64,000 nt of DNA from Bosea sp. OAE506 (lineage in GTDB: Bacteria; Pseudomonadota; Alphaproteobacteria; Rhizobiales; Beijerinckiaceae): assembly GCF_040546595.1 (NCBI RefSeq), contig NZ_JBEPOB010000001.1, forward strand, positions 131,501 to 195,500, written 5' to 3'. Positions 7,960 through 64,000 of this stretch are shown piece after piece. Numbering within the stretch: the first letter of the stretch is position 1; each line of letters begins with the position of its first letter. The position numbers and the translations under genes were made by a program. Below the pieces are notes generated by a model. It did no database searches, had not been told where the DNA came from, and saw only the letters and a list, made by a program, of their open reading frames with translations.

Positions 7960-7980
7960 CGGGCACCACGCGGCCCCCCC

Positions 7981-9464: not shown

Positions 9465-9543
9465 GTAACCGTCCGGTCTCGGCCGCCTTGCGCGGTGGGC
9501 GGTGTTTCCCGGACGGTGTGACCTTAAGTCTAGCTTTAAGGTC

Positions 9544-10307: not shown

Positions 10308-10407
10308 AGCGAAGGGCTTCGAGCCGATTCAGGACTGTGATCCGCGGTCAAGATCGACCATGATTCAATGGCTTGGCAGCCGGCCTCGCGATAATCTCGA
10401 AAAGACC

Positions 10408-12617: not shown

Positions 12618-12640
12618 AAGGGCCGACACCGGACGGTTAC

Positions 12641-12917
12641 TTCCGATCTGCTTAGAGAGATATGCGCCAATAGCGACTAGATCTCCGGGAAGACGCAGAC
12701 CTGTCAGCTGACGCCTGCCGTTTTCCAGTTTGCGCTCATGGCAAGCGATGCCTGACAGCATGAGAAAGCACGCCTGCGGCCAACTACCGGCTTCGACGAA
12801 CGTCTTACCTCGACTGACGGATTTTTGTGTGAATGAAAGGGACCGCAGCAATTGCAGGTTTTCCTCTGACAGCTCGTCTCGTAGCGACAGCGCTCGTATC
12901 AGGCGCTCCATGACCAT
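12641..12917 (-). pseudogene. Crp/Fnr-family regulator, N-terminal fragment (piece 1 of 3)
   Basis: Begins at ATG 12917 (MVMERLIRALSLRDELSEEN) and encodes the first strands of a cyclic-nucleotide-binding barrel (FVEAGSWPQACFLMLSGIAC, then TGLRLPGDLVAIGAYLSKQIG). IS66 cuts it after KQIG. Removing IS66 with one TTCCGATC copy and IS481 with one CTAG copy joins this piece to 9456-9115 and 8084-7981: 277+342+104 = 723 bases, exactly 241 codons and open throughout, which confirms that the three pieces are one gene. The HTH reads ELTQEELSDVLGLSLVHVNR. FNR-type iron-sulfur cysteines are not evident. Non-functional here. Confidence 0.9.
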
Positions 12918-13100
12918 ATCCTCGTCACAAGCCCGTGGCGGAAAATGTTAAAGTGCCCCTTTCTGGCACCTGCACGGAGTAGGTTCTGGCTGACGCTATC
13001 GGGGTCAGCGGCGACCTAACAATGGCCGTATTGCGATCCGGTTCCAGCAGCGTATCGCTTATCAACGTCCATCGGCGTCTTGCGGACGACGTGAAACCCG

Positions 13101-13364
13101 CTAATCCGGCGGCCAAAGTGCGTCGATCAATCGTTCTGGGCCTGCGATTAACGTGAGAGACGCGACAAAGACAACAGCGCAGCCCGCGCGACGAACACGG
13201 ATGTGAAACTTGTTCTTAGGCCCCGACGCGTTCGAAAAATAGGCCATCTCGCGTAGGCCCAGGAGTGCGTGCCGTTCGGCAGTCTGGTCGTTCGGGAGCT
13301 CGATGCCGACATCATCCAGGACCTGGAGAAGCTCATCATCAGAATCAAAAAAGTAGATCGGCAT
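13101..13364 (-). CDS. DUF6894-family protein
   Basis: 87 residues opening MPIYFFDSDDELLQVLDDVG and then ELPNDQTAERHALLGLREMA, the pattern of the small DUF6894 proteins common in Hyphomicrobiales (YFF-x-DG..D..G.ELPD...A..EA...L.EMA). Function unknown; often stress-associated. A relative is at 31652. The C-terminal strand (FHIRVRRAGCAVVFVASLTL) fits the small beta-sheet domain. Confidence 0.75.
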   Translation of the reverse strand: MPIYFFDSDDELLQVLDDVGIELPNDQTAERHALLGLREMAYFSNASGPKNKFHIRVRRAGCAVVFVASLTLIAGPERLIDALWPPD

Positions 13365-13668
13365 GCAGCCAGCTCCGCAGTTGCTGCCCCCGCTCTCGTC
13401 TTTAACTCGCGGACTGGCGCGAAGTTCTGGATGTCGCTCGCTCTGATACCTGAGCTCGACCGACGTTCAATTCCCTCAGAGTTGGTCGCTATGATGTCAA
13501 GCTTACTCCGGCCTCGGCGACGCCATGAAAAGGGGCCGCTTGAGCGGAAGGCTTCCGATAGGGCGCCCAGGTCAGCGTCTCCATCTTTGGGCCTCATAGT
13601 GAACCGCGCGCCGCTGGCGTCGTACAAACCTTTCGAACTGGATGCTTCCCGCGACCCGAGAGTCTTAT
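13365..13668. other. Intergenic stretch, nothing recognised
   Basis: The plus strand stays open for a long frame from 13269, but this is opposite the DUF6894 gene and has no family-like content. No GGAAC-type promoter is seen upstream of 13364. Confidence 0.4.
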
Positions 13669-13803
13669 ATGCGTCCCTCGATAGATGTTTGGCTGTGGCT
13701 AGGAGTTTCGGGCATTGTTGCCCTCACGGCCGTTATCGTCTGGATGTATTTCCCAGAGCCGGGCTTGGCCATTCCCGCGCCGGCTGCCGTTCGGCCCTCG
13801 TAG
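13669..13803 (+). CDS. Small single-pass membrane protein
   Basis: 44 residues: MRPSIDVWLWLGVSGIVALT followed by AVIVWMYF and a Pro/Ala tail (PEPGLAIPAPAAVRPS). The central 22 residues would span a membrane. Start choice rests only on the ATG; no strong ribosome-binding site. Unrecognised, plausible rather than certain. Confidence 0.35.
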   Translation: MRPSIDVWLWLGVSGIVALTAVIVWMYFPEPGLAIPAPAAVRPS

Positions 13804-14056
13804 GTCGCTTCCGTCATCCACTCCAGACCTCGGGTGTCATTGTATCACGTTCGCGCTTAGGAGCCTGTCGAATTTGGGAAGGCGTTCATATCGTCGACGG
13901 CGGATAACAGTTGCCGAGACACCAAAATCGGTGTCCATTAATGAGCGGCCTCGGCCGACGTGACGGGCGATGTGCGGGGGGCTCATCGAGCGGCTGATCC
14001 CCCCGGTACGAGCCGCGGGAGCCGAAAGGTTCCCCTGTCACGCTTCCCCCCGGTAT

Positions 14057-16123
14057 TCAGAACCCAATGTTGAGTCCCATACGTACGGTATCGCCGCTCG
14101 TCTTCGCCCGCATGGTTGCATATTCATCGGTGAAGAACCCGGCGGTCTCGCCAATAACAAGCCGCTGCCTTCCCAGATCGTAGTGCAGATAATCGAGCCT
14201 TATCGAGACCATCGGGCCCACAGCATACTCAAGGCCGCCGCCGAGCGCCCAACCAGAGGCCATCTGCGGATTGGACCCAGCATATGTTGGGTTATTCGTT
14301 GGCACGGGAGTTATTGCGCCGCGCTGGCCGAAATAGCCATAGGCGTAACCGCCGGTGGCGAACACGAGCAGGTCGCCGAAGGCAACGCCGGCCCGTGCCC
14401 TCACTGTTCCTAGCGTAAATAACTCGGTCTGTGCCTGAGTTGTGACCTGTACGCCGAACGGATTGACCGTCGAGGCTTTGCGGCCCCCAGTATGCATGGC
14501 TGAAAAATCCGTCTCGGCGCCCAGCACCATCGGTCCCAATTGGTAGTTGAAGCCTATTTGCCCAGTGAAGACGGCGTTGTTGCCGGAAGGCGAAAGCCGC
14601 GACGCGACATTGCCGGCGTCGATTGAGGTTTGCACCTCATTTCCGGGCCCGACGCCTTGGATGCGCGTAGGCGAGCGCTGACTGGCCCCTCCAACCGCCC
14701 CGCCGACATAGAAACCCGTCCAGCGCGGCTTTCCCGGAACCAAGGCCGGTGGCAGTGGCTCGATGCCCTCGGGTGCCGCAGGAGCTGGGACTTGCACCTG
14801 CAGACGCGGCGGTGCGGCCTGAACAGGCACTATGCGAGCCGGATCCACTGAGCGCGGTGTGTAGTCCGCGCGGCGGGGGCGTGGTGCCGCAGCTGGGCAG
14901 ACAGGACATATCGCAGCGGTTTGAACGCGACTGCGACTTGGGGCCGCCTGCGCAAGACGCAGTGCCTCAGCAACATGGGTAGAGCCAGGATAAAGCCGCG
15001 CGAACAGCCGAAAGGACTCTGCGTCCCCAGCCCGCACAGTTTCGGCCCACGCAGTTTCCTCTGTGCGCAGCGCGAGACCTCGGTGCAGTCGCAGCGCCCT
15101 CTCGTCGTCGGGATGCGCATCAAGCGTTGCCCGGTAGATGTCTCGACGGTCCCAAGCGATAGCCACGCGATAGGCGTCGGCGGGAGCCATCGAGCGAAGC
15201 GAAGCCGCTGTGGGGCGCACGGTGAGGGAGGGCATTTGCACGGTCGGCTGAGGAGTTTGGGGCCCCGGTACGCTGGAAGCTGCCGCCCGCTGGAAGAATG
15301 CGAAGTCAGAGATCAGCGAGGACGTCTCCCATGGGATCTGCTGCCCACCGGTGACGTCGTGAACGGATAGCCTTATGCGCCGGAAAAGTTGCTCGACTGG
15401 CAAACCGGGTTCTCGGATCTCGTGCAGGAACGCCGTGGTGAAGGGGCTGTTAGGGCCGGTGCCATCGGCCGCGGTAGCGCCCGGTGAGGTTGAAAAAGCA
15501 ACGAAGGTGCCGCTGCCGGAATCGATACGTGCCAATCCTGCCTCGGATCGCACGCCTTCCTGCGCTCCGTCGACGAGCTGCAGTGCCAGTCCACGTGACA
15601 ATTCCGCGGTGGCAAACGGGTTGTTGCGGCAGGCATCGAGCACGACAATCTTGGAGGCGGCATCCGTGCTGTCAAGGCGCCGAAGGATTTCGCTGAGCGA
15701 GAGCGCTTGGTTTGGAATGTCAGCGGAGCGCTGCGGTCGGACATCGATCGGAAGCAGGTAGTTCGTCCCGTCCAGCTGGACCGCATGGCCGGCGTAATAG
15801 ACTAGAGCGGTGGTGCCGCGGCCTGCTTCGCTCACCCGATCAATAAAGCGATCGAGCGCGTTACGAAGGTCCGTCAAAGTCGCATCGCTGGCAGGCACCA
15901 CTTCGAAGCCAGCTTCCTGCAGCACGGTGCGCGTCGCTGTTGCATCATTCAATGCATTCTGCAGTCGAGGGATGGTGCTGTAGGTGCCGTTGCCGATGAC
16001 GAAGGCAAGGCGCTTGGGTGAGACGGCGGCCTGGGCCAGAGCCGCACCGCCCCCATACGCCATCAAGCTGCTGATTGCCGCCACCATAGTGAAGGCCGCG
16101 AGGCACCAAAACCGCATCCGCAT
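14057..16123 (-). CDS. Secreted caspase-domain protein fused to an outer-membrane beta-barrel
   Basis: 688 residues in one frame. Residues 1-31: signal peptide ending AALAQA. Residues 36-275: peptidase C14 (caspase/metacaspase) domain with RLAFVIGNGTY at its start, catalytic His113 in YYAGHAVQ and Cys165 in VLDACRNNPF. Residues 290-465: helical part (possible short repeat region, 310-395) and a Pro/Ala-rich linker with ICPVCP. Residues 466-688: Omp25/RopB-like barrel starting WTGFYVGGAVGGA, with GQIGFNYQLGPMVLGAETDF and a terminal GLNIGF whose last Phe is the usual outer-membrane assembly signal. Caspase domains with signal peptides are common in rhizobia; joining one to a porin-like barrel is unusual. 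Substrate and role are unknown. The domain call is firm, the surface location is inferred. Confidence 0.85.
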   Translation of the reverse strand: MRMRFWCLAAFTMVAAISSLMAYGGGAALAQAAVSPKRLAFVIGNGTYSTIPRLQNALNDATATRTVLQEAGFEVVPASDATLTDLRNALDRFIDRVSEAGRGTTALVYYAGHAVQLDGTNYLLPIDVRPQRSADIPNQALSLSEILRRLDSTDAASKIVVLDACRNNPFATAELSRGLALQLVDGAQEGVRSEAGLARIDSGSGTFVAFSTSPGATAADGTGPNSPFTTAFLHEIREPGLPVEQLFRRIRLSVHDVTGGQQIPWETSSLISDFAFFQRAAASSVPGPQTPQPTVQMPSLTVRPTAASLRSMAPADAYRVAIAWDRRDIYRATLDAHPDDERALRLHRGLALRTEETAWAETVRAGDAESFRLFARLYPGSTHVAEALRLAQAAPSRSRVQTAAICPVCPAAAPRPRRADYTPRSVDPARIVPVQAAPPRLQVQVPAPAAPEGIEPLPPALVPGKPRWTGFYVGGAVGGASQRSPTRIQGVGPGNEVQTSIDAGNVASRLSPSGNNAVFTGQIGFNYQLGPMVLGAETDFSAMHTGGRKASTVNPFGVQVTTQAQTELFTLGTVRARAGVAFGDLLVFATGGYAYGYFGQRGAITPVPTNNPTYAGSNPQMASGWALGGGLEYAVGPMVSIRLDYLHYDLGRQRLVIGETAGFFTDEYATMRAKTSGDTVRMGLNIGF

Positions 16124-16522
16124 ACTGCCTCCGCCACATTCGTGATTTGCCCTGCAGTATCGATGGCTGGTCCTATGCCAGCGTCATCCAATTGACGGAG
16201 AGCGCAGACCGTTATCCTGGAGCGGTTGAATTGCAAGGCGCCTCGACCGCATATTTGATCGATTGAGCAATGCTGGCCTTTTCGTCCTCTTCACAGACAT
16301 GGCTGCTGCTTCGCTTGTCCGATTGCGGCAATGGCTAAATTTCCCTCGATCATGGGGATCAGCTCGTACGTCACTCAACGATAATAGCCCGCGACCGTTA
16401 TGAGAGGCCTTTCCATTTAGAGATGGTCGTGCGCTCGGCCGAGCTTGGCATGACGGCCGCCGTGCTGCCTGCGCTTTACGACACGAGTTGGACAGCTGGA
16501 ATCACTTGCCCTTCCGTTTGGA
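16124..16522. other. Divergent intergenic region, nothing recognised
   Basis: Lies between the caspase/barrel gene (minus) and the LuxR-type gene (plus), so promoters for both should be here. I see no GGAAC-type element, palindrome or small gene I can support. Confidence 0.4.
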
Positions 16523-17314
16523 GTGCTTTTGGACTTCTTCTTGCTGACAGTGGGTGCTAGCGTGTGGCTCTATCGCGGGTCAGCGAGAAGCAGATATGTC
16601 ATACGCCTACCAGTATGCTTCATCGGTTTTGGCCGAACTGCGTCAGAGCGAAGGGTGACCAACCCTTCCCACCTGGTGTCGGAGCTCATTCAAGAGAATT
16701 TCGACCTCAAGATGCAGCGAGATTACGCATTGGGGGCTCTCGATGCGGTGGCAGTCGCCATGGCCTTGGTCGAGCGAAGCGGTCGCTTCGTCTACATCAA
16801 TCGAACGGGCTGTAGGTTGTTATCAGCACCAGGCCTCCTCCATCTCAGCAAAGGGCGAATCACCGCTTCACAGCCCCACACCCAAAAGACTTTCCGGCGA
16901 TTTCTGGAGGGGGCGTGTGGAGCAGCCCGCCACGGCACAGTTCATCGGCGCAGCTTGCTTTTGAGGAGCGAGATCAAGACGTTGGCGGCCCTATCAGTCA
17001 GCATCGTTCCGTGTCCGCCCTCGCCCGCAGCTCACCATCCAAATGAACTGTATCTCTTAGCGATAAAGCCACTGGGCACGATGGAGGACATTACTGTCAC
17101 CAGCCGTGAACTCTTCAATCTGACCAGCTCTGAGGCTCAAATCGCCTCTTCACTAGCCGCCGGGCTATCACTTTCAGAGGCCGCTGAGTTGCATAGCATC
17201 AGAGTTTCGACGGCGCGCACTCATCTTTCACGAATTTTCCAGAAGACAGATACACAACAACAGAGCCAACTTGTTTCGTTATTGCGAGATGCCGTACTAC
17301 CGGTACAACGCTAA
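16523..17314 (+). CDS. LuxR-type HTH regulator with PAS-like domain, 5' end uncertain
   Basis: C-terminal LuxR/GerE helix-turn-helix at about residues 192-255 (LTSSEAQIASSLAAGLSLSE, then IRVSTARTHLSRIFQKTDTQ). Before it is a PAS-like stretch (ALGALDAVAVAMALVERSGR, then FVYINRTGCRLLSAPG). These one-piece regulators usually have 100 or more further N-terminal residues; here the first 50 residues look unrelated, so the gene may be truncated or frameshifted upstream. Start is GTG 16523; an alternative ATG is 16712. Signal unknown. Confidence 0.65.
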   Translation: MLLDFFLLTVGASVWLYRGSARSRYVIRLPVCFIGFGRTASERRVTNPSHLVSELIQENFDLKMQRDYALGALDAVAVAMALVERSGRFVYINRTGCRLLSAPGLLHLSKGRITASQPHTQKTFRRFLEGACGAARHGTVHRRSLLLRSEIKTLAALSVSIVPCPPSPAAHHPNELYLLAIKPLGTMEDITVTSRELFNLTSSEAQIASSLAAGLSLSEAAELHSIRVSTARTHLSRIFQKTDTQQQSQLVSLLRDAVLPVQR

Positions 17315-39711: not shown

Positions 39712-41505
39712 ATGCGCCGCGTCCACTCCATGCCATTCGGTGCCGAGGTCGCCGACGGGGCCGTCCGATTCTCGATATGGGCACCCTCCGTGCGCGAGGT
39801 CACCCTAATGATTGACGGGACCGAGCGGCCCATGACGCGTGATGCCGAGGGATGGCACCAGCTCCACGACCCGCAGGCGCGCCCGGGATCGCTCTATCGC
39901 TTCCGCATCGAGGGCGGGCTTTCGATTCCCGATCCCGCCTCGCGCTTCCCACCTGAAGACATCGAGGGGCCGAGCCAGGTGATCGATCCCGGCGCCTTCG
40001 CCTGGAGCGACGGCGACTGGCGCGGGCGCCCCTGGGAGGAGACGGTCCTCTACGAGGCCCATGTCGGCACGGCGACGCCGGAAGGGACCTTCGCGGCGCT
40101 GACGGCGAAACTCGACCATCTGCACGATCTCGGCATCACCGCGCTCGAGCTGCTGCCGGTGGCGGATTTTCCGGGCGACCGCGGCTGGGGCTATGACGGG
40201 GTGCTGCATTACGCCCCCGACCATGCCTATGGCACGCCCGAGGAGCTGAAGCGTCTGGTCGACGAGGCGCATCGCCGTGGGATGATGGTCTTCCTCGACG
40301 TGGTCTACAATCACTTCGGCCCGTCCGGAAACTATCTGCCCAACTACGCCGCCTCCTTCTTCACCGAACGGCACGAGACGGCCTGGGGCGCCGGCATCAA
40401 TTTCGACGGCGAGGCCGCCGCCGTGGTGCGCGACTACTTCGTCCACAATGCGCTCTACTGGCTGGAGGAATATCATTTCGACGGCCTGCGCTTCGACGCG
40501 GTGCATGCCATCGCAGACGACAGCAGCCGGCACGTCATCGGCGAACTGGCCGAGCGCGTCCGCGAAGGGCTGCCCGGGCGCGAGATTCACCTCGTTCTGG
40601 AAAACGCCGCCAACGAGGCGCGCTGGCTTGAACGCGACGAAGCCGGCCGCCCGAGCCTGCACAATGCGCAATGGACCGACGACACGCATCACGCCTGGCA
40701 CCGGCTGCTCACCGGCGAGAGCGACGGCTACTATGCCGATTACGACGATCCGGCCCGGCATCTCGGCCGCTGCCTCGCCGAGGGATTCGCCTATCAGGGC
40801 GAGTTCTCGGCGCATGAGGGCGCCGTCCGGGGCGAGCCTTCCGCCCATCTGCCGCCCTCGGCTTTCGTCAACTTCCTGCAGAACCACGACCAGGTCGGCA
40901 ACCGGGCTCAGGGCGAGCGGATCGGCGCGCTGACCGAGCCGGCGAAACTCGCGCTGGCACGCGCCGGCCTGCTGCTCTCCCCGCAGATTCCGATGCTGTT
41001 CATGGGTGAGGAGTGGCAGGCTTCGGCGCCGTTCCAGTATTTCGTCGATTTCGCCGATCCGGAGCTGTCGCGTGCCGTCAGGGACGGGCGGCGGCGGGAA
41101 TTCGGCGGTTTCGGCGGCTTCGCGGCGGAAGAAGTGCCCGACCCGACGGACCCGCAGACCTTCGCCCGCTCGCGCCTGGACTGGGCGGAGATCGAGCGCC
41201 CTCCACATGCCGCGGTGCTCGCGGAAACCCAGGCCCTGCTGCGGCTCAGGCAGGAGCAGGTTGTGCCGGTGACGAAGACACGGTTTCGCGGTGCGACGTG
41301 CCAACGCCCCGCGCCGGACACGCTCGACATCCGCTGGGATTTCGAACGCGGGACGCTGCGCTTCGTGGCTCATTTCGGCGACAGCGAAGCGGTCGTGGAG
41401 GGTCCTGGCTCGTCGAGCCTGATCTGGGCCAGCCCCGGCGTCGAACTCGGAGCCGAAATCCGCCTTCAGCCCTGGACGGGCGCCTTTCTGGTGAACCGCT
41501 CATGA
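39712..41505 (+). CDS. treZ: Malto-oligosyltrehalose trehalohydrolase
   Basis: 597 residues. Releases trehalose from maltooligosyl-trehalose, the second step of the TreY-TreZ route from glycogen or maltodextrin. N-terminal beta-sandwich (MPFGAEVADGAVRFSIWAPS), then a GH13 barrel with GWGYDGVLHYAPDHAYG, nucleophile Asp about 262 (FDGLRFDAVHAI), acid/base Glu about 297 (LVLENAANEA) and the transition-state Asp in FLQNHDQVGNRAQG. Start ATG 39712 fits the family N-terminus. The stop overlaps the next start (ATGA at 41502), so treZ and the malQ-treY fusion are coupled. Cytoplasmic; osmotic and desiccation protection. Confidence 0.95.
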   Translation: MRRVHSMPFGAEVADGAVRFSIWAPSVREVTLMIDGTERPMTRDAEGWHQLHDPQARPGSLYRFRIEGGLSIPDPASRFPPEDIEGPSQVIDPGAFAWSDGDWRGRPWEETVLYEAHVGTATPEGTFAALTAKLDHLHDLGITALELLPVADFPGDRGWGYDGVLHYAPDHAYGTPEELKRLVDEAHRRGMMVFLDVVYNHFGPSGNYLPNYAASFFTERHETAWGAGINFDGEAAAVVRDYFVHNALYWLEEYHFDGLRFDAVHAIADDSSRHVIGELAERVREGLPGREIHLVLENAANEARWLERDEAGRPSLHNAQWTDDTHHAWHRLLTGESDGYYADYDDPARHLGRCLAEGFAYQGEFSAHEGAVRGEPSAHLPPSAFVNFLQNHDQVGNRAQGERIGALTEPAKLALARAGLLLSPQIPMLFMGEEWQASAPFQYFVDFADPELSRAVRDGRRREFGGFGGFAAEEVPDPTDPQTFARSRLDWAEIERPPHAAVLAETQALLRLRQEQVVPVTKTRFRGATCQRPAPDTLDIRWDFERGTLRFVAHFGDSEAVVEGPGSSSLIWASPGVELGAEIRLQPWTGAFLVNRS

Positions 41506-51622: not shown

Positions 51623-52795
51623 TCAGGGCTTCATCATAACCTTGATGCAGCCGTCCTGCTTATCGCGAAACGTCTGGTAGAGGTCTGGCCCTTCTTCCAG
51701 AGAAGCCCGATGGGTGATCACGAAGGAGGGATCGATCTCGCCGGACACGACCTTCTCCAGCAGCGGCGCCAGATAGCGATGGGTGTGGGTCTGGCCGGTG
51801 CGGATGGTGATGCCCTTGTTCATCAGCGCACCGAAGGGGATCTTGTCGAGGAAGCCGATATAAACGCCCGGCACCGAAATCGTGCCCCCCTTGCGACAAC
51901 ACATGATCGCCTCGCGCAGCACATGGGGCCGATCGGTGCCGAGATAGAGCGAGGCCTTGACCTTGTCGACGACGGCGTCGATGGCGCCGCCGGCATGGGC
52001 TTCCGTCCCGACGGCATCGATGCAGCGGTCGGGGCCGCGTCCGCCAGTCATCTCCATCAGCTGGTCGTAGACTTTGACCTTGTCAAAATCGATCGTCTCG
52101 GCCCGGCCGTGCTGATGGGCCATCGCCAGCCGCTCGGGCACGTTGTCGATGGCGATGACGCGTCCGGCGCCCAACATCCAGGCGCTCTGGATGGCGAACT
52201 GGCCGACGGGGCCGCAGCCCCAGACCGCGACAGTGTCGCCGGGCTCGATCTCGGCATTCTCCGCGGCCATGTAGCCGGTCGGGAAGATGTCGGAGAGAAA
52301 CAGCGCCATCTCGTCATCGAGCCCGTCGGGCACCTTGATGTGGCCGACGTCGCCGTAGGGCACCCGCAGATACTCCGCCTGCCCGCCGGCGAACCCGCCC
52401 AGCATGTGAGAATAGCCGAACAGGCCTGACGGCGAGTGGCCCATCGCGGCGGCTGCCATCTTGGCGTTGGGGTTGGAGCGGTCGCAGAGCGAGAAGAGCT
52501 GCTTGCGACAGAAGAAGCAGTCGCCGCAGGCGATGTTGAACGGCACGACGATGCGCTCGCCCACCTTGAGATTGGTCACGGCACGCCCGACCTCGACGAC
52601 CTCGCCCATGGTCTCGTGGCCGAGGATGTCACCGCTCTCCATGGTCGGCATATAGCCGTCATAGAGATGCAGATCCGAGCCGCAGATCGCGCAGGCGGTG
52701 ACCTTGATGATGACGTCGCGGTCGTCCTGCAATTGGGGATCGGGCACCGTGTCGCAACGGATGTCGCCCTTGCCGTGCCAGCACAACGCCCTCAT
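51623..52795 (-). CDS. Zinc-dependent alcohol dehydrogenase (MDR family)
   Basis: 390 residues from ATG 52795 (GGAGGTGACC directly upstream). Catalytic zinc ligands in [14 protein letters not shown] and [13 protein letters not shown], structural zinc cysteines in [17 protein letters not shown], and a Rossmann fold ([20 protein letters not shown]). The insertion [20 protein letters not shown] places it near the formaldehyde dismutase/FdhA-like group often annotated as glutathione-independent formaldehyde dehydrogenase. Substrate uncertain. Exact EcfG-type promoter upstream. Confidence 0.9.
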
Positions 52796-52828
52796 GGTCA
52801 CCTCCCGACGAATGGTCCTTTGGAGGCC

Positions 52829-52853
52829 AACGGGCGGAGGAAGGCGGCGTTCC
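52829..52853 (-). promoter_or_regulatory. EcfG-type general stress promoter
   Basis: Minus strand GGAAC (52853-52849), 16-base spacer, CGTT (52832-52829), 34 bases before the alcohol dehydrogenase start. Confidence 0.82.
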
Positions 52854-55554: not shown

Positions 55555-55852
55555 GCCTCGCCATCCCCTCGCGCACCAAAGCTTTGGGGCCGGTTCCGGT
55601 AGCTCGGCACAGGCAGCACGCGCATGTATCACGCAGCCAGATTTGCCCGCACCGCGGATGCGGATACGGACGGGATCTGCGCCAGACTGACGGGGTCACT
55701 CGACCGGCGTCATCAAGATGCTGTGCATGACGGCATTCGCGGCCCGCTCAGAAGACCATCTTCTTCATCTACTTCTTTGACTTCTTCATCTTCAGGAACC
55801 GCCTCCTGCTGCTGCTGTTGATCCTGCAACTGAGCGACAGCCGGAGGCCGGA
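55555..55852. other. Leader region of the glycan operon
   Basis: No EcfG element or terminator. The last 100 bases encode, without an ATG, GTG or TTG, a very hydrophobic frame (TIFFIYFFDFFIFRNRLLLL) whose TGA overlaps the epimerase ATG. Confidence 0.4.
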
Positions 55853-56956
55853 ATGACAGCGCGATATCTGATCACGGGCGGAGCCGGATTTATCGGGCGC
55901 CATCTCTGTGCCGAACTGCTCGGTGCCGGGCACGATGTCCGGATCCTCGACAGCTTCGTGCCACAGGTTCACGGCGATAGCAGGCAGGCTCCAGCCGATG
56001 TCGAGGTTCTGACAGGCGATCTGCGCGACGCGGACCTCGTCCAACGCGCGCTGGAAGGCATCGACGGCGTCTTTCACCTCGCCGCCGAGGTCGGCGTCGG
56101 CCAGAGCATGTACGAGATCGAGCGTTATGTCGGCGGCAACGACCTGGCCACCGCCGTCCTGCTCGACCAGATTGCGCGCAGTCCGATCCAGCGGCTGGTC
56201 GTCGCTTCCTCGATGAGCGTCTACGGCGAGGGCCTCTATGAGGGCTCTGATGGCACCCGCTTCAACGCCGTGCGTCGGGTCTTGAAGGGGGGCCAGCGCG
56301 ACTGGGATCCGCACGGCCCCGATGGCGAGACGCTCCTGCCAGTCGCGACGGCCGAGGACAAGCCCGTTGACCTCGCCTCCATTTATGCCCTGACCAAATA
56401 TGCCCAGGAACGGGCCTGCCTCATCGTTGGCGGCGCCTATGGCGTCCAGACGGTCGCGCTGCGGCTGTTCAACGTTTTTGGACCAGGTCAGGCGCTCTCC
56501 AATCCCTACACCGGCGTGCTCGCCAATTTCGGCTCCCGCCTGCTGAACAACCAGCCCCCCATGATCTTCGAGGACGGCAAGCAGAAGCGCGACTTCGTGC
56601 ATGTGCGCGACGTCTCTACCGCCTTCGCGCTGGCGATGCACGCTCCCCATGTCGATGGGCAGATCATCAATATCGGTAGTGGTCAGGACTACACGATCGA
56701 GACCGTCGCCCGGCTGCTGGCCGATGCGCTGGGGCGGACAGGGTTCGCACCGCAGATCCTGAGTAAGGCGCGCGCGGGCGATATCCGGCACTGCTTTGCC
56801 GACATCAGCCGCGCGAAGGAGGTGCTCGGCTACTGGCCGGCTCATCGCCTCGAGGATTCGATGGAGGAGGTCGTCGAGTGGCTCTCAGCCTCGCGGGCCG
56901 AGGATGGCGGCGAACGCGCCCGTCGGCAGCTCGAGGAACGGGGGCTGGTGGCATGA
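55853..56956 (+). CDS. NAD-dependent nucleotide-sugar epimerase/dehydratase
   Basis: 367 residues, extended SDR. Nucleotide site YLITGGAGFIGRHLCAELLG, VFHLAAEVGVGQSMYEI, catalytic Ser in VVASSMSVYGEGLY and Tyr/Lys in SIYALTKYAQERA; C-terminal substrate part FEDGKQKRDFVHVRDVSTAF. Probably a UDP- or other NDP-hexose 4-epimerase or dehydratase. First gene of an operon in which every following gene overlaps or nearly touches the last. Substrate not deducible. Confidence 0.9.
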   Translation: MTARYLITGGAGFIGRHLCAELLGAGHDVRILDSFVPQVHGDSRQAPADVEVLTGDLRDADLVQRALEGIDGVFHLAAEVGVGQSMYEIERYVGGNDLATAVLLDQIARSPIQRLVVASSMSVYGEGLYEGSDGTRFNAVRRVLKGGQRDWDPHGPDGETLLPVATAEDKPVDLASIYALTKYAQERACLIVGGAYGVQTVALRLFNVFGPGQALSNPYTGVLANFGSRLLNNQPPMIFEDGKQKRDFVHVRDVSTAFALAMHAPHVDGQIINIGSGQDYTIETVARLLADALGRTGFAPQILSKARAGDIRHCFADISRAKEVLGYWPAHRLEDSMEEVVEWLSASRAEDGGERARRQLEERGLVA

Positions 56957-59010
56957 GCGGCATCGCGTCCGCCACCGCAGGACAGCCGGCCGTCGGCTTC
57001 GTCGAATGGTTTCGCCCCGGCGAACACCGGCGCGTAGAAGCGGCGATCGCCGGGCTTCAGGCGGCAGGCGTCAACCGGCTGCGCAGCCATCTCTCATGGG
57101 CTGAGTATCACGGCGACGGCGGCCGGGACTGGTATGACTGGCTGATCCCGCGGCTCGGGCAGAGCTTCGATTTTCTGCCCTGCATCCACTACACGCCGCC
57201 GTCGCTGTCTCGGACGGGCGCCTCCTCCGGAGCGCCGCGGGTCCTCAAGGACTATGCCGACTTCATCGATGGCGTGCTGACCCGCTACGGCGAGCATTTC
57301 CGCGACGTGGAAGTCTGGAACGAGCCCAACAACCTGCTCGACTGGGATTGGCGCGTCGACCCCGACTGGAGCCTGTTCTGCGAAATGATCGGTAATGCTG
57401 CCTATTGGGTGCAGCATCGCGGCTGGCGCGCCGTGCTCGGCGGCCCGTCCCCCTTCGATCCACACTGGCTGGAGCTGATGGGCGAGCGCGGCGTTCTCGG
57501 CGTCGTCTCGGCAGTGGGGTTGCACGGGTTCCCCGGCACATGGGACAGCGAAGTCGGGACCTGGCGCGGCTATGACGCGCATATCGCCGAGGCGCGGGCG
57601 ATTCTGGCACGACACAACCCCGACTGCGAGATCTGGATCACCGAGGCCGGCTATTCGACCTGGCGCGAGGACGAGGCCGAGCAGGTGCGGCGCTTCACCG
57701 AGGCGCGCGAAGCCCCGGCAGACCGCCTCTATTGGTATGGCTGGCAGGACGTGCCGCGCGACGTGCCCGTGCAGGAGGGGCTCTATTTCGACCCGCGCCA
57801 CTATCATCTCGGCGTCACCCGCGAGGATGGGCGGCCCAAGCTGCTGCGGCGCCTGCTGGAGACGGAGGGGTCGGCGGGCTTCGATACCATAATGCCCGAC
57901 GCTCCCCCGGCGCGGCCCTTGCGCGCGGTACGCCCGGCGCCCGTCGTCGTCTTCGGCGGCGCCGGCTTCATCGGCACCAATCTCTGCGAGCGGTTGCTCG
58001 GCGAGGGCCAGCGCGTGATGCTGTTCGACAGCCTCGGCCGGCCGGGGGTTGAGCGGAACCTGCGCTGGCTTCAGGAACGGCACGGGGCTGCGCTCGAAAC
58101 GCGGCTCTCGGACATCCGGGACGAGGCGGCGGTCCGGTCCGCCGTCACCGGCGCCAAGGCCTGCTTCCATCTCGCCGCCCAGGTCGCGGTCACCGACAGT
58201 CTCGTCGACCCGCGTCATGACTTCGCCGTCAACGCCCAGGGGACGCTCACCATTCTCGAGGCTTTGCGTCTCCAAGCGCCCGAGACCCCGCTCGTCTTCG
58301 CCAGTACCAACAAGGTCTATGGCTCGCTGGCGAGCCTCGACATGGAGCAGACCGAGAACGGTTGGGCGCCTGCAAACGGGCTGTTTCGACGCCACGGCGT
58401 GAACGAGACGCGCCCGCTCGACTTCTGCACGCCCTATGGCTGCTCGAAGGGCACCGCGGACCAGTATGTGCTGGACTATGCCCACAGCTTCGGGCTGCGC
58501 ACCGCCGTGTTGCGAATGAGCTGCATCTTTGGGCCGCGCCAGTTCGGCACAGAAGACCAAGGCTGGGTTGCGCATTTTCTACTGAAGGCGCTGAGGGGCG
58601 AGCCCATCACCATCTTCGGAGACGGACAGCAGGTTCGCGACATCCTTCACGTGGCCGACGCGGTCGATGCGTATTGCCGTGTCCTCGGCGCCATCGACAG
58701 CGTCAGTGGCCGAGCCTTCAACCTCGGCGGCGGTCCCGCCAACTCCGTCAGCCTCGCGACCGTCATCGCCGAGATCGGCATGCTGATCGGCCGGCCTCCG
58801 ACCTTGCATCATCAGGACTGGCGCGCTGGCGACCAGCCTTGGTTCGTCGCCGATACCCGCGCACTCCAGAAGACTTTGGGATGGCGGGCGAGCTTCGACT
58901 GGCGCGACGGCCTGCGCGATCTCCATGGCTGGGCCACACGCGAATTCGGCCATGGCCCGGTTGCGCCCGTCGCGGCCGCGGCGAGCGCACGACGGAGGGT
59001 CTCGGCATGA
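56953..59010 (+). CDS. Fusion of clan-A glycoside hydrolase-like domain and NDP-sugar epimerase
   Basis: 685 residues from ATG 56953 (ATGA overlap with the epimerase). Residues about 10-310: beta/alpha barrel with acid/base Glu124 in VEVWNEPNNLLDWDW and nucleophile Glu231 in CEIWITEAGYSTW, the clan GH-A pattern (nearest to GH39/GH5 xylosidase or cellulase types). From about 329: extended SDR with VVVFGGAGFIGTNLCERLLG, ACFHLAAQVAVTDSLVDPRH, VFASTNKVYGSLASLD, YGCSKGTADQYVLDYAHSFG (Tyr/Lys) and FGDGQQVRDILHVADAVDAY, closest in style to CDP-tyvelose/paratose 2-epimerases. No signal peptide, so a cytoplasmic glycosidase working with sugar nucleotides, or a catalytic fold reused. Rare arrangement. 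Confidence 0.88.
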   Translation: MSGIASATAGQPAVGFVEWFRPGEHRRVEAAIAGLQAAGVNRLRSHLSWAEYHGDGGRDWYDWLIPRLGQSFDFLPCIHYTPPSLSRTGASSGAPRVLKDYADFIDGVLTRYGEHFRDVEVWNEPNNLLDWDWRVDPDWSLFCEMIGNAAYWVQHRGWRAVLGGPSPFDPHWLELMGERGVLGVVSAVGLHGFPGTWDSEVGTWRGYDAHIAEARAILARHNPDCEIWITEAGYSTWREDEAEQVRRFTEAREAPADRLYWYGWQDVPRDVPVQEGLYFDPRHYHLGVTREDGRPKLLRRLLETEGSAGFDTIMPDAPPARPLRAVRPAPVVVFGGAGFIGTNLCERLLGEGQRVMLFDSLGRPGVERNLRWLQERHGAALETRLSDIRDEAAVRSAVTGAKACFHLAAQVAVTDSLVDPRHDFAVNAQGTLTILEALRLQAPETPLVFASTNKVYGSLASLDMEQTENGWAPANGLFRRHGVNETRPLDFCTPYGCSKGTADQYVLDYAHSFGLRTAVLRMSCIFGPRQFGTEDQGWVAHFLLKALRGEPITIFGDGQQVRDILHVADAVDAYCRVLGAIDSVSGRAFNLGGGPANSVSLATVIAEIGMLIGRPPTLHHQDWRAGDQPWFVADTRALQKTLGWRASFDWRDGLRDLHGWATREFGHGPVAPVAAAASARRRVSA

Positions 59011-60302
59011 GGGTCGCACTGGTTAACCCCCGCTGGAGCTTCGAGGGCAGCATCTATTTCGGCTGCCGGGAGCCGCATCTGCCGCTGGAACTCGGCTACT
59101 GCCGCGCATTGCTGGAGCGCGCCGGGCACCAGACGCTGATGCTCGATTGCCATCTCATGGACCGCGAGCACGAGAGCCTAGCTGCGGAGATCGCCGCCTT
59201 TGGCGCGGACATGACCGTCGTCACGACGGCGCCGAGCTATCTCTTCTGGCGTTGCGCGCCGCCCGAGCTGCGGGTCCCGGCCGACTTCCTGCGCAGCCTC
59301 GCCGGCCGCGGCGGCAAGACCGTCGCCGTCGGCCCTCATGGCTCGGTCACGCCGGGCGCCACGCTGCGCAAACTCGGTTGCGACGTGATCGTGCGCGGCG
59401 AGTGCGAGGAGGTCGTGGCGCGGCTGGCCGACGGTCTGCCCCTGCACAGTATCGCCGGGATCGCCTTTCGCGAAGGCGAGGAGCTAATCGTCAATGGCGG
59501 GCCCGCCGCCAGCCCCTTCGTGGAGGCTCCGGCCCTGACCTGGCCGGCGGAGTGGATCGCCCGACACCACCATCACCACCACCGTTTCGACGACAACCGC
59601 CGCGGCTTGGGGGCCGAGGTCGAAGCCTCGAGAGGCTGTCCCTACACCTGCTCCTTTTGCGCCAAGATCGAATTTCGCGATGCCTATCGGCGCCGCCGCC
59701 TGGATCTCGTGCTGTCGGAAATCGACGCGCTGATCGCGCAGGGCGTGGGCTACATTTATTTCGTTGATGAGATCTTCCTGCCGCAGAAGCCGTTGTTGGA
59801 AGCTCTGGTCGAGCGCGACGTGCAGTTCGGCATCCAGACCCGCATCGACTTGTGGAAACCAGATCTCCTGGAACTGCTCGGCCGGGCCGGCTGCGTCTCG
59901 ATCGAGGCGGGCATCGAGAGCCTGACCGTCGAGGGCCGCGCGGCACTGGCCAAGCGCTGCCGGCTGGAGACCGAGGATCTTGCCGCGCTGCTCATCGAGG
60001 CGCGCCGCCATGTTCCCTTCGTCCAGGCGAACCTGATCGGGATGGAGGAGGACAGCGCCGAACTCGTGACCTATTGGCGCGACGTGCTGCTGAAGGCCGG
60101 GGTCTGGGCCAACGAGCCCGTGCCGCTCTATCCCTACCCTAGCTCGCCCAGCTACCGTAGCCTCTGGGGCGAGCCCGACGATGCCGCATGGGAACGCGCG
60201 CACGCCTATTATCTCCAGGCGTTTTCAGCCTTCAGCGACATCCAGGAGAAGCTGCCGGTTCCGCTCGAAAAGCTGGAGGCGTCATGCTGTCCGGCCCATT
60301 AA
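59007..60302 (+). CDS. B12-binding radical SAM protein
   Basis: 431 residues from ATG 59007 (ATGA overlap). N-terminal cobalamin-binding-like Rossmann domain (VALVNPRWSFEGSIYFGCRE, GADMTVVTTAPSYLFW, VGPHGSVTPGATLRKLGCDV, IVRGECEEVVARLADGLP). Radical SAM core with Cys211, Cys215 and Cys218 in SRGCPYTCSFCAK (C-x3-C-x2-C), then YIYFVDEIFLPQ and VSIEAGIESLTVEGRA. His187-His192 form a natural six-histidine run before the core. Enzymes of this type methylate unactivated carbons or rearrange sugars and lipids; in this context a sugar or lipid-linked glycan is likely. From memory similar proteins occur in rhizobial glycosyltransferase clusters; not verified. Confidence 0.88.
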   Translation: MRVALVNPRWSFEGSIYFGCREPHLPLELGYCRALLERAGHQTLMLDCHLMDREHESLAAEIAAFGADMTVVTTAPSYLFWRCAPPELRVPADFLRSLAGRGGKTVAVGPHGSVTPGATLRKLGCDVIVRGECEEVVARLADGLPLHSIAGIAFREGEELIVNGGPAASPFVEAPALTWPAEWIARHHHHHHRFDDNRRGLGAEVEASRGCPYTCSFCAKIEFRDAYRRRRLDLVLSEIDALIAQGVGYIYFVDEIFLPQKPLLEALVERDVQFGIQTRIDLWKPDLLELLGRAGCVSIEAGIESLTVEGRAALAKRCRLETEDLAALLIEARRHVPFVQANLIGMEEDSAELVTYWRDVLLKAGVWANEPVPLYPYPSSPSYRSLWGEPDDAAWERAHAYYLQAFSAFSDIQEKLPVPLEKLEASCCPAH

Positions 60303-61414
60303 TGCCCCGCCCGCGGCGGGTCCTGATGACGCTCGATGCGGTAGGCGGCGTCTGGCGCTACGCACTCGATCTCGCCGAAGGACTGGGCGAAGCCGGGATC
60401 GACGTCCTGCTGGTCGGGTTCGGCCCCAAACCCAGCCCCGACCGCCTGCGCGAGATCGAGCGGTTTGGGCGCGCATCACTGGTGTGGGTCGACGAGTCGC
60501 TCGATTGGATGGTGTCGGACGCGACCGCTTTGACAGGTGTCGCCCCGGCGCTTCAGCGGCTGGCGGCGGACTGGCGGCCCGACCTCATTCATCTCAACCT
60601 GCCCTCGCAGGCAGTCGGCCTCCAGGTCTCGTGCCCCGTCGTCGCGGCGACCCATTCCTGCCTTGCGACGTGGTGGCAAGCGGTATGCGGCGGGGCCCCG
60701 TTGCCGGCCGAATGGCTTTGGCAGCGGTGCCTCACGGGCGAAGGGCTGGCGCAGGCGGCCCGGGTGCTCGCTCCGAGTGCGAGCCATGCCGCCGCGACCC
60801 GGACCGCCTATGGGGACGTCGCGTCCATCGATGTCGTTCACAATGCGAGCCTGGCCGTCTGCCCGCCGACCCGCCAGCGCAAGCCAGTCGTGCTTTCGGC
60901 TGGGCGCTGGTGGGACGAGGGAAAGGGAGCGGCGACGCTGGATGCGGCGGCCGCGCTCTCTCCCTGGCCCGTTCTGATGGCGGGCGGACTGGATGGTCCC
61001 GATAGCCTCTGCCCGCAGCCGGCCCACGCCCTCGCGCTGGGCGACCTCGCACCGGCGACGCTGACCACGCTGATGGAGCGCGCGGCCGTCTTCACCTCGC
61101 CCTCGCTCTACGAACCCTTCGGTCTGGCCGTGCTTGAAGCCGCCCAGCGCGGCGCCGCGCTGGTGCTCTCTGATATCCCCACCTTCCGAGAATTGTGGAG
61201 GGGTGCGGCGCTTTTCGTCCCACCAGGAGACCCGGCGGCGCTGGCTGCAGTGATCACCCGGCTCGCGGGCGACGAAGGCGAGCGGGCCCACCTAGCCGGA
61301 GCAGCGTTGCGGCGCGCGGCTGATTTTTCCCCGGAGCGCCAAATCGAAGGCGTGCTGCGCTGCTACGGCGCCGCCCTCGGCGCGTCAGTTTCTACTCTGG
61401 CCGCGGCGGAATGA
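60302..61414 (+). CDS. Glycosyltransferase, GT4-like
   Basis: About 370 residues from ATG 60302, which overlaps the stop before (TAATG); ATG 60284 is an in-frame alternative. RRVLMTLDAVGGVWRYALDL at the start is typical of GT-B enzymes; VVLSAGRWWDEGKGAATLDA and the donor-site block SPSLYEPFGLAVLEAAQRGA (E-x7-E) with LVLSDIPTFRELW identify a retaining GT4-type transferase. Cytoplasmic. Donor unknown. Confidence 0.88.
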   Translation: MPRPRRVLMTLDAVGGVWRYALDLAEGLGEAGIDVLLVGFGPKPSPDRLREIERFGRASLVWVDESLDWMVSDATALTGVAPALQRLAADWRPDLIHLNLPSQAVGLQVSCPVVAATHSCLATWWQAVCGGAPLPAEWLWQRCLTGEGLAQAARVLAPSASHAAATRTAYGDVASIDVVHNASLAVCPPTRQRKPVVLSAGRWWDEGKGAATLDAAAALSPWPVLMAGGLDGPDSLCPQPAHALALGDLAPATLTTLMERAAVFTSPSLYEPFGLAVLEAAQRGAALVLSDIPTFRELWRGAALFVPPGDPAALAAVITRLAGDEGERAHLAGAALRRAADFSPERQIEGVLRCYGAALGASVSTLAAAE

Positions 61415-61415
61415 A

Positions 61416-62540
61416 ATGCGCATCGTCCTCTACACCCATTCGCTGATCTCCGACTGGAACCATGGCAACGCCCACTTCCTGCGGGGCGTCCTGCGCGAAC
61501 TCGAGGCCCGCGGTCACAGCACGCTGGCGCTCGAACCGCGCGACGGCTGGAGCCGCAGCCATCTTCTGGCCGAGCGTGGCGCGGCTGCGGAGGACGGGTT
61601 CCGACAGACCTTCCCCGAACTGAACGTCGACTTTCATGACGAAGCCTTCGACCACGAGGCGGCGCTGGCGGATGCCGACGTCGTGGTCGTGCATGAATGG
61701 ACTCCGCCGGAGCTGGTGGCGCGCATCGGGCGACTGCGCCATGACGGCGCGCGTTTCACCCTCTGCTTCCACGACACGCATCACCGCGCCGTCTCGGCGG
61801 AAGCCGACATCGCCTCGCTTGCGCTGGCGGATTACGATCTCGTGCTGGCTTTCGGCGAGACGTTGCGGCAGCGCTATCTGGCGCGCGGCTGGGGCGACCA
61901 TGTCCACACCTGGCACGAGGCCGCGGATCTGCGCCTGTTTGGGCCGCGGCCGGCGACGCTGCCGGAGGCCGATCTGATCTTCGTCGGCAACTGGGGCGAC
62001 GGGGAACGGGCACAGGAACTGACGGAATTCCTCATCGAGCCGGCGCAGCTCCTGACGCTGACCGGCGCCGTGCGCGGCGTGCGCTATCCCGCGGAGGCGC
62101 TGGAGCGCGTGGCGCAGGCCGGCCTGCGCTATGGTGGATCGATCGCGAATGCAGAGGTGCCCGAGGCCTTCGCCCGCCATCGCATGACTGTCCATGTGCC
62201 GCGGCGGCCCTATGTGGAAAGCCTGCCGGGCATCCCGACTATCCGTGTTTTCGAGGCGCTGGCCTGCGGCATCCCGCTGATCAGCGCGCCCTGGGACGAT
62301 GCCGAGGGCCTTTTTCGCGAGACCGATTTCGTCAGGGTCCGCGACGGCGGGGAGATGGCCCGCGCCATGCGCCTCATCCGCGACGATGCCGATTTCGCGG
62401 CAGCGGTCGCGGCCCAAGGGCTGGAGACCGTCCGCGCCCGCCATAGCTGCGCGCATCGAGTCGACGAGCTGCTCGCGATCCTCGCCCGCCACGGCACGCA
62501 GCGCGCCCGCCAAGCCCTCGTCGACCCGGAGTTCGCCTGA
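61416..62540 (+). CDS. Glycosyltransferase, CgeB/group 1-like
   Basis: 374 residues: MRIVLYTHSLISDWNHGNAH, LRGVLRELEARGHSTLALEP, VVVVHEWTPPELVARIG, LIFVGNWGDGERAQELTEFL and YVESLPGIPTIRVFEALACG then IPLISAPWDDAEGLF, the C-terminal donor-site pattern of CgeB-like transferases. One base separates it from the previous stop. First of three related GT-B genes in tandem. Confidence 0.87.
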   Translation: MRIVLYTHSLISDWNHGNAHFLRGVLRELEARGHSTLALEPRDGWSRSHLLAERGAAAEDGFRQTFPELNVDFHDEAFDHEAALADADVVVVHEWTPPELVARIGRLRHDGARFTLCFHDTHHRAVSAEADIASLALADYDLVLAFGETLRQRYLARGWGDHVHTWHEAADLRLFGPRPATLPEADLIFVGNWGDGERAQELTEFLIEPAQLLTLTGAVRGVRYPAEALERVAQAGLRYGGSIANAEVPEAFARHRMTVHVPRRPYVESLPGIPTIRVFEALACGIPLISAPWDDAEGLFRETDFVRVRDGGEMARAMRLIRDDADFAAAVAAQGLETVRARHSCAHRVDELLAILARHGTQRARQALVDPEFA

Positions 62541-63634
62541 TGCGCATCGCCTTCTATGGATCGAGCCTGCTGTCTTCCTACTGGAACGGTGCGGCGACCT
62601 ATTACCGCGGCATTCTGCAGGGGCTCGCACGACTCGGACACGACATCGTCTTCTATGAGCCTGACGCCTTCGACCGGCAGTCGCATCTCGACATGGAGCC
62701 GCCTGACTGGTGCCGTGTCGTGGTCTATCCGGCGACGCACGAGGGCCTTGCCTACGTGCTGGCCGAAGCGAGCGAGGCTGACGCGGTCGTGAAGGCGAGC
62801 GGGGTCGGCTATGGCGACGAAGCCCTGCTCGCCGGCGTGCTGGCGCAGGCGCGCCCCGCTGCGCTGACGATCTGGTGGGACGTCGATGCCCCCGCGACGC
62901 TGGCGGAGATCGGAGCTCAACCGGGACATCACCTGCGGGCGGCGCTGCCGCGGCTCGACCTCGTGCTGACCTATGGTGGCGGTGAGCCTGTCGTCTCGGC
63001 TTACCGGGCGCTGGGAGCGGCAATATGCCTGCCCGTCTACAACGCACTCGATCCACAGAGCCACCACCCGGTCGCGCCCGATCCGCGTTTCGCCGCCGAT
63101 CTCGCTTTCCTCGGCAATCGGCTGCCGGACCGCGAAGTGCGGGTCGAGCGCTTCTTCCTGAACGCTGCGCGGGCGCTGCCGGAGCGACGCTTTCTGCTCG
63201 GCGGCTCGGGCTGGGGCGACAAGCCCTGCCCAGCCAATATCCGCAAGCTCGACCATGTACCGACGGCCGCACACAACGCCTTCAACGTGACGCCGCTGGC
63301 GGTGCTCAACATTTCACGCGAGAGCATGGCGGCCACCGGCTTCTCGCCGGCGACTCGCGTTTTCGAGGCGGCGGGCGCCGGTGCTTGCCTGATCACGGAC
63401 GCCTGGGAGGGGATCGAGCTCTTCCTCACGCCGGGTACGGAAGTCCTGGTCGCCCAAGATGGCACCGACGTCGCCGAGATCCTGAGCGCGCTAACGCCGG
63501 AGAAGGCGAGGCGGATCGGCCAGGCGGCCCTCGCGCGGGTGCTGGCCGAACACACCTATGACCGCCGGGCCCACGAACTGGACGCCAAGCTGCGCGCCGC
63601 GCTCGCTATCAAGCGCCGGGAGCTCGCGGCATGA
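62540..63634 (+). CDS. Glycosyltransferase, CgeB-like
   Basis: 364 residues: MRIAFYGSSLLSSYWNGAAT, YYRGILQGLARLGHDIVFYE, ALTIWWDVDAPATLAEI, DLVLTYGGGEPVVSAYRALG and LNISRESMAATGFSPATRVF then EAAGAGACLITDAWEGIELF. The start overlaps the previous stop (TGATG). Same family as its neighbours on both sides; probably adds successive sugars. Confidence 0.88.
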   Translation: MRIAFYGSSLLSSYWNGAATYYRGILQGLARLGHDIVFYEPDAFDRQSHLDMEPPDWCRVVVYPATHEGLAYVLAEASEADAVVKASGVGYGDEALLAGVLAQARPAALTIWWDVDAPATLAEIGAQPGHHLRAALPRLDLVLTYGGGEPVVSAYRALGAAICLPVYNALDPQSHHPVAPDPRFAADLAFLGNRLPDREVRVERFFLNAARALPERRFLLGGSGWGDKPCPANIRKLDHVPTAAHNAFNVTPLAVLNISRESMAATGFSPATRVFEAAGAGACLITDAWEGIELFLTPGTEVLVAQDGTDVAEILSALTPEKARRIGQAALARVLAEHTYDRRAHELDAKLRAALAIKRRELAA

Positions 63635-64000
63635 CCAAGCCCCTCGACATCGTCTTCATCGGCCTGTCGCTGACCTCCTCCTGGGGAAACGGCCACGCCA
63701 CCACCTATCGCGCGCTGCTGCGCGGGTTGGCGCGTCTCGGCCACCGCGCCCTGTTCCTGGAGCGCGACGTCTCTTGGTATGCGGAGAACCGCGACCTGCC
63801 CCGGCCGGATTTCTGCAACCTCGCACTCTATAGCGACCGCGCCGCGCTGATCCGCGATTATGGCGAGAGGATCGCGGGCGCGGATGCCGTTATCGTCGGC
63901 TCCTTCGTTCCCGAGGGCATCGCCGTAATCGACGAGGTGCTGGCGCGGGCGCAGGGCGTGCGCGCCTTCTACGATATTGACACGCCGGTGACGCTTGCTC
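63631..64000 (+). CDS. Glycosyltransferase, CgeB-like, 3' end outside window
   Basis: 123 codons visible from ATG 63631 (ATGA overlap): DIVFIGLSLTSSWGNGHATT, YRALLRGLARLGHRALFLER, then GADAVIVGSFVPEGIAVIDE and AFYDIDTPVTLA. Matches the N-terminal half of the gene before it. The operon clearly continues past the window. Confidence 0.85.
   Translation, partial: MTKPLDIVFIGLSLTSSWGNGHATTYRALLRGLARLGHRALFLERDVSWYAENRDLPRPDFCNLALYSDRAALIRDYGERIAGADAVIVGSFVPEGIAVIDEVLARAQGVRAFYDIDTPVTLA

Follow-up and report, generated by a model that had tools for sequence, protein, structure and literature searches.

A rhizo-twelve glycan cassette with a putative EcfG-type promoter in Bosea sp. OAE506 and other Alphaproteobacteria

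What does a tightly packed run of sugar-nucleotide and glycosyltransferase genes make, and under what conditions is it expressed? The question is raised by the right-hand end of a 64 000-nucleotide stretch of Bosea sp. OAE506 (positions 131501-195500 of C1, the only contig of a 5.0-Mb genome), here called the window. From position 55853 to the window end, seven genes encode a sugar-nucleotide short-chain dehydrogenase/reductase (SDR1), a glycosidase fused to a second such enzyme (SDR2), a B12-binding radical S-adenosylmethionine (SAM) enzyme, a GT4 glycosyltransferase and three CgeB-like glycosyltransferases (Table 1). Our reading, to which we give about an even chance (0.5), is that this cassette serves the general stress response of Alphaproteobacteria by making a small oligosaccharide or glycoside that is soluble and cytoplasmic; judging from the predicted enzymes, the product would probably contain xylose and be O-methylated. 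That response protects soil and plant bacteria, and many of its target genes lack a known product.

Of the six junctions between the seven genes, three are 4-bp overlaps, two are 1-bp overlaps and one is a 1-bp gap, which confirms the tight spacing reported in the initial annotation of the window. Two more genes join to the right of the window through further 4-bp overlaps, giving an operon of nine. The first is a third SDR, resembling UDP-glucuronate decarboxylase (UXS), so that the two sugar epimerases counted within the window become three SDRs in the operon; the second is a methyltransferase, a kind of gene that had been anticipated on that side. The start and stop codons of the cassette genes were verified on the sequence, and domains of the window genes were assigned with Pfam and NCBIfam profiles. 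A 19-residue hydropathy scan found no membrane protein among the nine products (one CgeB-like protein just reaches 1.6). The earlier proposal of a pathway devoted to one defined oligosaccharide or glycoside, perhaps bearing a radical-modified sugar, is supported.

Upstream of SDR1 is a putative EcfG-type promoter. The published motifs, in the accessible parts of the articles, are GGAAC-N17-20-GTT for Sphingomonas melonis (PMC6599016) and GGAAC-N16-CGTT for Rhizobium etli (PMC3892343). The 250 nt or so ahead of SDR1 were searched for GGAAC-N16,17-NGTT in 80 named loci, the best 80 of 454 stretches encoding relatives of the radical enzyme in a scan of species genomes. A site was present in 55 of the 75 testable loci (five could not be tested; other thresholds gave 56/77, with the window included, and 54/75); grouped at genus level, 14 of the 21 units have one. 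This unit count replaces one with Methylobacterium split into single loci (16 with a site, 16 without, 4 not testable). Most sites lie 55-75 nt ahead of the start codon. The control, positions upstream of the seven internal genes, gave one site in 538, and shuffled upstream regions had a site in a mean of 0.66 of 77. Over the 80 loci and both strands the relaxed motif occurs 406 times, against 83 in the reversed control. In the long form of the cassette, described below, a site precedes the inositol-phosphate synthase gene in 38 of 55 loci and the phosphatase gene in 2 of 44, both of them where the phosphatase leads its operon; none precedes the permuted glycosidase (0/25), the methyltransferase (0/36) or the fourth CgeB-like enzyme (0/33). 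All five alphaproteobacterial plasmid loci examined have the site, and the single gammaproteobacterial one (a Xanthomonas sacchari plasmid) does not. A tree built by a quick method covers the window and 48 of the 80 named loci, Mesorhizobium being cut down to six; on it, site-bearing loci are scattered over separate branches. The window genome also encodes NepR, the anti-sigma partner (PF18557, 52.5 bits). The cassette thus appears to be induced by sigma-EcfG in the general stress response.

Several observations weigh against this reading of the promoter. The strict form GGAAC-N16,17-CGTT is not enriched (6 of 77 loci, 8 in the reversed control), so that the relaxed form alone carries the promoter signal, and the relaxed NGTT form was picked after the window's own site had been seen, though it is consistent with the published consensus. 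That form also occurs in 11 of 77 loci in the reversed control and in 41 of 77 on the opposite strand, the latter perhaps owing to divergent neighbours. The internal-gene control positions are coding DNA, unlike the region upstream of SDR1. Sampling is uneven: Mesorhizobium makes up about half of the testable loci (38 of 75) and most of the positive synthase promoters (31 of 38). Some genera are poor in sites, both before SDR1 (Azospirillum 0/3, Methylorubrum 0/3, Methylobacterium 3/12) and before the synthase (Methylobacterium 0/7, Methylorubrum 0/3, Azospirillum 0/2). Five Methylobacterium and Methylorubrum loci (L126, L133, L142, L147 and L154) have in common the stretch GGAACAAAGATCCTCG, about 160 nt upstream of SDR1; by eye its GTT part is missing, so it was not scored as a site.

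The cassette is conserved as a unit. All seven core genes were found in 70 of the 80 named loci, in identical order in 68 of these, the two exceptions being contigs that end inside the cassette. The families also travel together. Among 289 genomes of the class, TIGR04295, the family of the radical enzyme, exceeded its cut-off in 13 (666-720 bits; next best match 106 bits) and TIGR04290, that of the methyltransferase, in 14, which include all 13. The glycosidase was found in 12 genomes, all within the 13; the exception, G071, is a fragmented assembly of 82% completeness. Fisher tests of this co-occurrence gave p values of 1e-21 and 2e-20, and with the synteny they rule out chance proximity of the genes. 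In a sample of the phylum, TIGR04290 was found in 14 of 398 genomes, all of the window's class, and one gammaproteobacterial plasmid also carries it. In a sample of 101 relatives, TIGR04295 exceeded its cut-off in two, the window genome and one from another family (next best 133 bits). The other same-genus genomes of that sample have no TIGR04295 over the cut-off, which indicates that the cassette is mobile or often lost. With the glycosidase as query, the cassette is placed on 50 plasmid records, 44 of them from Rhizobium; the radical enzyme is on nine plasmid records, none from Rhizobium.

The initial annotation took the operon as a candidate for an undescribed pathway, and this needs correction. 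Several close homologues are named in public sources as 'B12-binding domain/radical SAM domain protein of rhizo-twelve system', and the two curated families that co-occur in this cassette are both over their cut-offs here (TIGR04295, 700.2 bits against 400; TIGR04290, 360.4 bits against 300). From this co-occurrence we infer that TIGR04290 is a defining member of the rhizo-twelve system. In the open-licence literature we found no paper on the system under its system, family or gene names, and no published gene list for it. Cassette genes are not named as targets for S. melonis in the accessible part of PMC6599016, nor in those of PMC3892343 and PMC3188799, and a term search of the accessible part of PMC4814048 gave no match. 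Databases already name the cassette, without a function; what is known is a gene set rather than a pathway. What is new here is the EcfG-type promoter, the optional radical enzyme and a PslG-like glycosidase in normal and permuted order. With an EcfG-type promoter in front of a conserved glycan operon, what was an orphan cassette becomes a stress pathway that can be tested, in laboratory strains such as Rhizobium etli CFN42.

The B12 radical SAM enzyme, which had been placed at the centre of the pathway, is an optional part: some otherwise intact cassettes lack it. Thirteen methyltransferase-bearing genomes (12 from the phylum sample plus G137) divide into eight with TIGR04295 and five without, one of the five being of the window's own genus. 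The surroundings of the methyltransferase gene were inspected in three of these five (G347, G658 and G513). The cassette is otherwise present, and the aligned ends of SDR2 and GT4 are 71-89 bp apart with no radical gene between them; the UXS-like gene is visible in two, and the third stretch ends before that position. Annotated compact cassettes without the radical enzyme are also found on R. leguminosarum pR132503, R. etli CFN42 p42b, Paracoccus pAK1 and Agrobacterium fabrum pAt12D13b. The p42b cassette spans RHE_RS22265 to RHE_RS22300. A Geminicoccaceae plasmid cassette has the radical enzyme and is followed by manganese catalase, as in the window genome. Natural cassettes with and without this enzyme are matched pairs for finding its role.

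Two forms of the cassette recur. The window's form is compact, with nine genes, and has the glycosidase fused to the 2-epimerase-like SDR. It lacks the inositol-phosphate synthase, phosphatase and fourth CgeB-like enzyme of the long form, in which the glycosidase is a separate, circularly permuted protein occurring together with the synthase. The synthase lies within the flanks of 49 of the 80 named loci, and 55 of the 80 have no glycosidase within the covered flank. The longest form seen (L232, in G461, 654-17165) has 14 genes, adding inositol-phosphate synthase, a histidine phosphatase, a fourth CgeB-like enzyme and a nucleotidyltransferase. On the Xanthomonas sacchari plasmid (L241) a Gfo/Idh gene stands between the fusion and GT4, and msbA, lpxK, kdsB and pgsA are nearby.

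Sequence comparison gives the individual enzymes predicted roles of differing sharpness. The third SDR has its best match in a characterised UDP-glucuronate decarboxylase, human UXS1, with 347 bits; the nearest of the other SDR families reaches 136, and the enzyme is a predicted UDP-xylose maker. SDR2 probably acts as a C2-epimerase on sugar nucleotides (CDP-tyvelose 2-epimerases score 260 and 244 bits, the next enzyme 120), and SDR1 has a best match of 143 bits, at which several GalE-like enzymes are not separable. The distant solved kin of the radical enzyme are a B12 tryptophan C2-methyltransferase (49 bits) and an apramycin oxidoreductase (42 bits). The best solved relative of the methyltransferase is CmoB (48 bits), and a Lys and a Tyr in the aligned stretch are common to both; residues of this kind presumably bind the CmoB ligand. 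A carboxymethyl transfer by this CmoB-like methyltransferase was considered and is not part of our reading. For CgeB-like enzyme c the sequence search found no solved relative.

The 'hydrolase' of the initial annotation is a PslG-like glycosidase of clan GH-A, as judged from its sequence and predicted structure. The Pfam scan of the fusion protein gave no glycosidase family match, and a sequence search with the canonical glycosidase alone found no solved relative at a significant E-value. The model (predicted local distance difference test score, pLDDT, 76.9) is a triose-phosphate isomerase (TIM) barrel in canonical order, with Glu124 and Glu231 invariant across 33 aligned rows. Foldseek ranks PslG first, with a template-modelling (TM) score of 0.64; by VIA Z scores several GH1 enzymes tie, and GH39 is not separated from GH1. 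Identity to PslG (GH39) of Pseudomonas aeruginosa is 18-20%. Unlike PslG, the cassette glycosidase has no hydrophobic N-terminus, as far as the hydropathy scan detects one (no signal-peptide predictor was used), and it is fused to an epimerase in the window and circularly permuted in the long form. With the permuted model, Foldseek TM scores by query length were no higher than 0.43 among the 50 matches listed, and other TIM barrels ranked first; a low score is expected for a permuted order, but it is no proof of one. The permuted glycosidase offers a natural case of barrel permutation within one pathway. One metagenome-assembled contig assigned to Myxococcales (L138) has the permuted glycosidase and the fused canonical one together, at 5748-6614 and 7905-9902.

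From these assignments a route can be proposed. Sigma-EcfG would transcribe the operon from the promoter seen in the sequence. The UXS-like enzyme would supply UDP-xylose, with SDR1 and SDR2 acting on sugar nucleotides. GT4 would begin a chain on a soluble acceptor, and the three CgeB-like enzymes could add residues. The PslG-like glycosidase may trim, release or transfer the chain, an action we place inside the cell with regard to its missing hydrophobic N-terminus. The TIGR04290 methyltransferase would cap or decorate the chain, and the radical enzyme, where present, might add a modification, most simply C-methylation of a sugar. The likely role would be protection in drought, salt or starvation, alongside trehalose. 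A soluble protectant seems to us more likely than a surface polymer because the operon is without export and polymer genes and stands in a stress-gene setting (below).

In the long form, the inositol-phosphate synthase and phosphatase suggest inositol as the acceptor. The start of mycothiol synthesis (INO1, MshA and a phosphatase) is similar, as the long form likewise has an INO1-type synthase, a phosphatase and a GT4 enzyme. The likeness is limited by the synthase scores (540 and 449 bits in two examples), which fall under the INO1 cut-off of 638, by the 28 bits of the window GT4 to MshA and by the lack of the synthase in the window genome. A much wider claim, which we consider doubtful, is that Alphaproteobacteria have a class of general-stress metabolite not recognised so far. 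It would be a soluble oligosaccharide begun on inositol, containing xylose and bearing O- and C-methyl groups, and its source would be a mobile sigma-EcfG cassette with two interchangeable forms and a shared glycosidase that is either normal or naturally circularly permuted. Three facts count against our main reading of a soluble stress product. The inositol-phosphate synthase has no match (PF01658, TIGR03450) in the window genome or in 8 of the 13 radical-enzyme genomes of the class, which leaves an inositol acceptor unsupported for the window's own form. A search with the permuted glycosidase at E 1e-20 lists at least 8000 relatives, some in genera where the neighbourhood was not examined. 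Finally, the flanks were scanned only in part, and surface-sugar genes lie some kb to the right.

A glycolipid is the alternative that survives best, although we think it unlikely. GT4 would then glycosylate a membrane acceptor such as phosphatidylinositol, in the manner of PimA, and the CgeB-like enzymes would extend it. PimA takes the first two places among the solved relatives of GT4, at 40 bits, a score that is weak and general for GT4 enzymes. The frequent inositol-phosphate synthase in the flanks fits a phosphatidylinositol acceptor, but its absence from the window genome does not. HpnJ and other B12 radical enzymes of lipid pathways are distant kin of TIGR04295, yet no lipid-making enzyme is seen among the nine genes or the identified extra genes of the long form.

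A side branch or modification of a lipopolysaccharide O-antigen or an exopolysaccharide, with PslG-like trimming of the chain, is a shade less likely still. The first rank of PslG in the Foldseek search suggests it, PslG being a member of the Psl exopolysaccharide cluster. Rhizobial O-antigens often contain O-methylated sugars, and lps genes are presumably present on R. etli p42b. In S. melonis, according to the accessible part of PMC6599016, some glycosyltransferase and exopolysaccharide genes depend on EcfG. The initial annotation had allowed for a standard surface-polysaccharide locus to the right; none appears among the scanned genes, and what is present is a TuaH-like glycosyltransferase gene (L006 18446-19942) and a UDP-galactopyranose mutase gene (L007 16-1152), some 5-8 kb past the operon. 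Against this alternative, no polymerase, flippase or initiating sugar-phosphate transferase was found in the nine genes or the scanned neighbours (the flanks being scanned in part), and the glycosidase lacks the hydrophobic N-terminus. A secreted or stored glycosylated natural product, such as a small-molecule antibiotic or signal, is very improbable; natural-product clusters typically encode B12 radical SAM enzymes, 2-epimerases and methyltransferases, but the conserved genes include no aglycone-making enzyme or exporter, and the broad distribution and stress-type promoter speak against it. Past the mutase gene, an unassigned open reading frame on the minus strand (L007 1227-2438) looks by eye like another GH-A type glycosidase.

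Table 1. Coordinates of the cassette and associated sites (window positions, or contig positions where marked C1)
Feature	Position	Strand	Remarks
EcfG-type site	52829-52853	-	52 nt before Zn-alcohol dehydrogenase (51623-52801, -)
Putative EcfG-type promoter	55795-55819	+	GGAAC-N17-GTT, GGAACCGCCTCCTGCTGCTGCTGTT; 58 nt before SDR1 start
SDR1	55853-56956	+	Predicted GalE-like NAD-dependent sugar-nucleotide enzyme, 367 amino acids; open reading frame and sequence comparison
Glycosidase-SDR2 fusion	56953-59010	+	685 amino acids; N-terminal clan GH-A glycosidase (about residues 13-310), C-terminal CDP-tyvelose 2-epimerase-like SDR
B12-binding radical SAM enzyme	59007-60302	+	TIGR04295; CxxxCxxC motif; 431 amino acids
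GT4 glycosyltransferase	60302-61414	+	Alternative in-frame ATG at 60284
CgeB-like glycosyltransferase a	61416-62540	+	PF13524
CgeB-like glycosyltransferase b	62540-63634	+	PF13524
CgeB-like glycosyltransferase c	63631-64000	+	PF13524; truncated by window, true end C1:196267
UXS-like SDR	C1:196264-197292		UDP-glucuronate decarboxylase-like; outside window
Methyltransferase	C1:197289-198011		TIGR04290; outside window
Manganese catalase	C1:198754-199632		742 bp past operon

The window is rich in probable general-stress genes with EcfG-type sites, from 23982 to 55819 and on into the right flank. Besides those of Table 1, sites precede two DUF892 genes (24426, 29628), a DUF3008 gene (32361), an SDR gene (35343), an alpha-amylase-family gene (39715-41502) that we read as TreZ-like, an alpha/beta hydrolase gene and a beta-lactamase-family gene, and, right of the window, manganese catalase and another SDR gene; for a few in the window or right flank no gene can be clearly assigned. 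Genome-wide, the strict CGTT form is present at 115 sites, compared with 46 for the reversed pattern, and at least 20 among the matches listed fall between 48 and 254 kb. Of the EcfG regulons described for S. melonis Fr1 and R. etli, in the accessible parts of the sources, both have a promoter motif like the cassette's, and the S. melonis targets, which include 4-alpha-glucanotransferase, malto-oligosyltrehalose trehalohydrolase, a Zn-alcohol dehydrogenase and catalase (PMC6599016), are of kinds like the window neighbours.

In 12 of the 80 named loci the neighbourhood of the cassette includes a Zn-alcohol dehydrogenase that by eye resembles the window's. On the two Rhizobium plasmids and the Paracoccus plasmid (among L238, L240, L242 and L243) a Zn-dehydrogenase and Gfo/Idh/MocA pair is divergent to the cassette lacking the radical enzyme, and on the A. 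fabrum plasmid the Zn-dehydrogenase alone is so placed; on all four, these divergent units have an EcfG-type site about 50-130 nt upstream.

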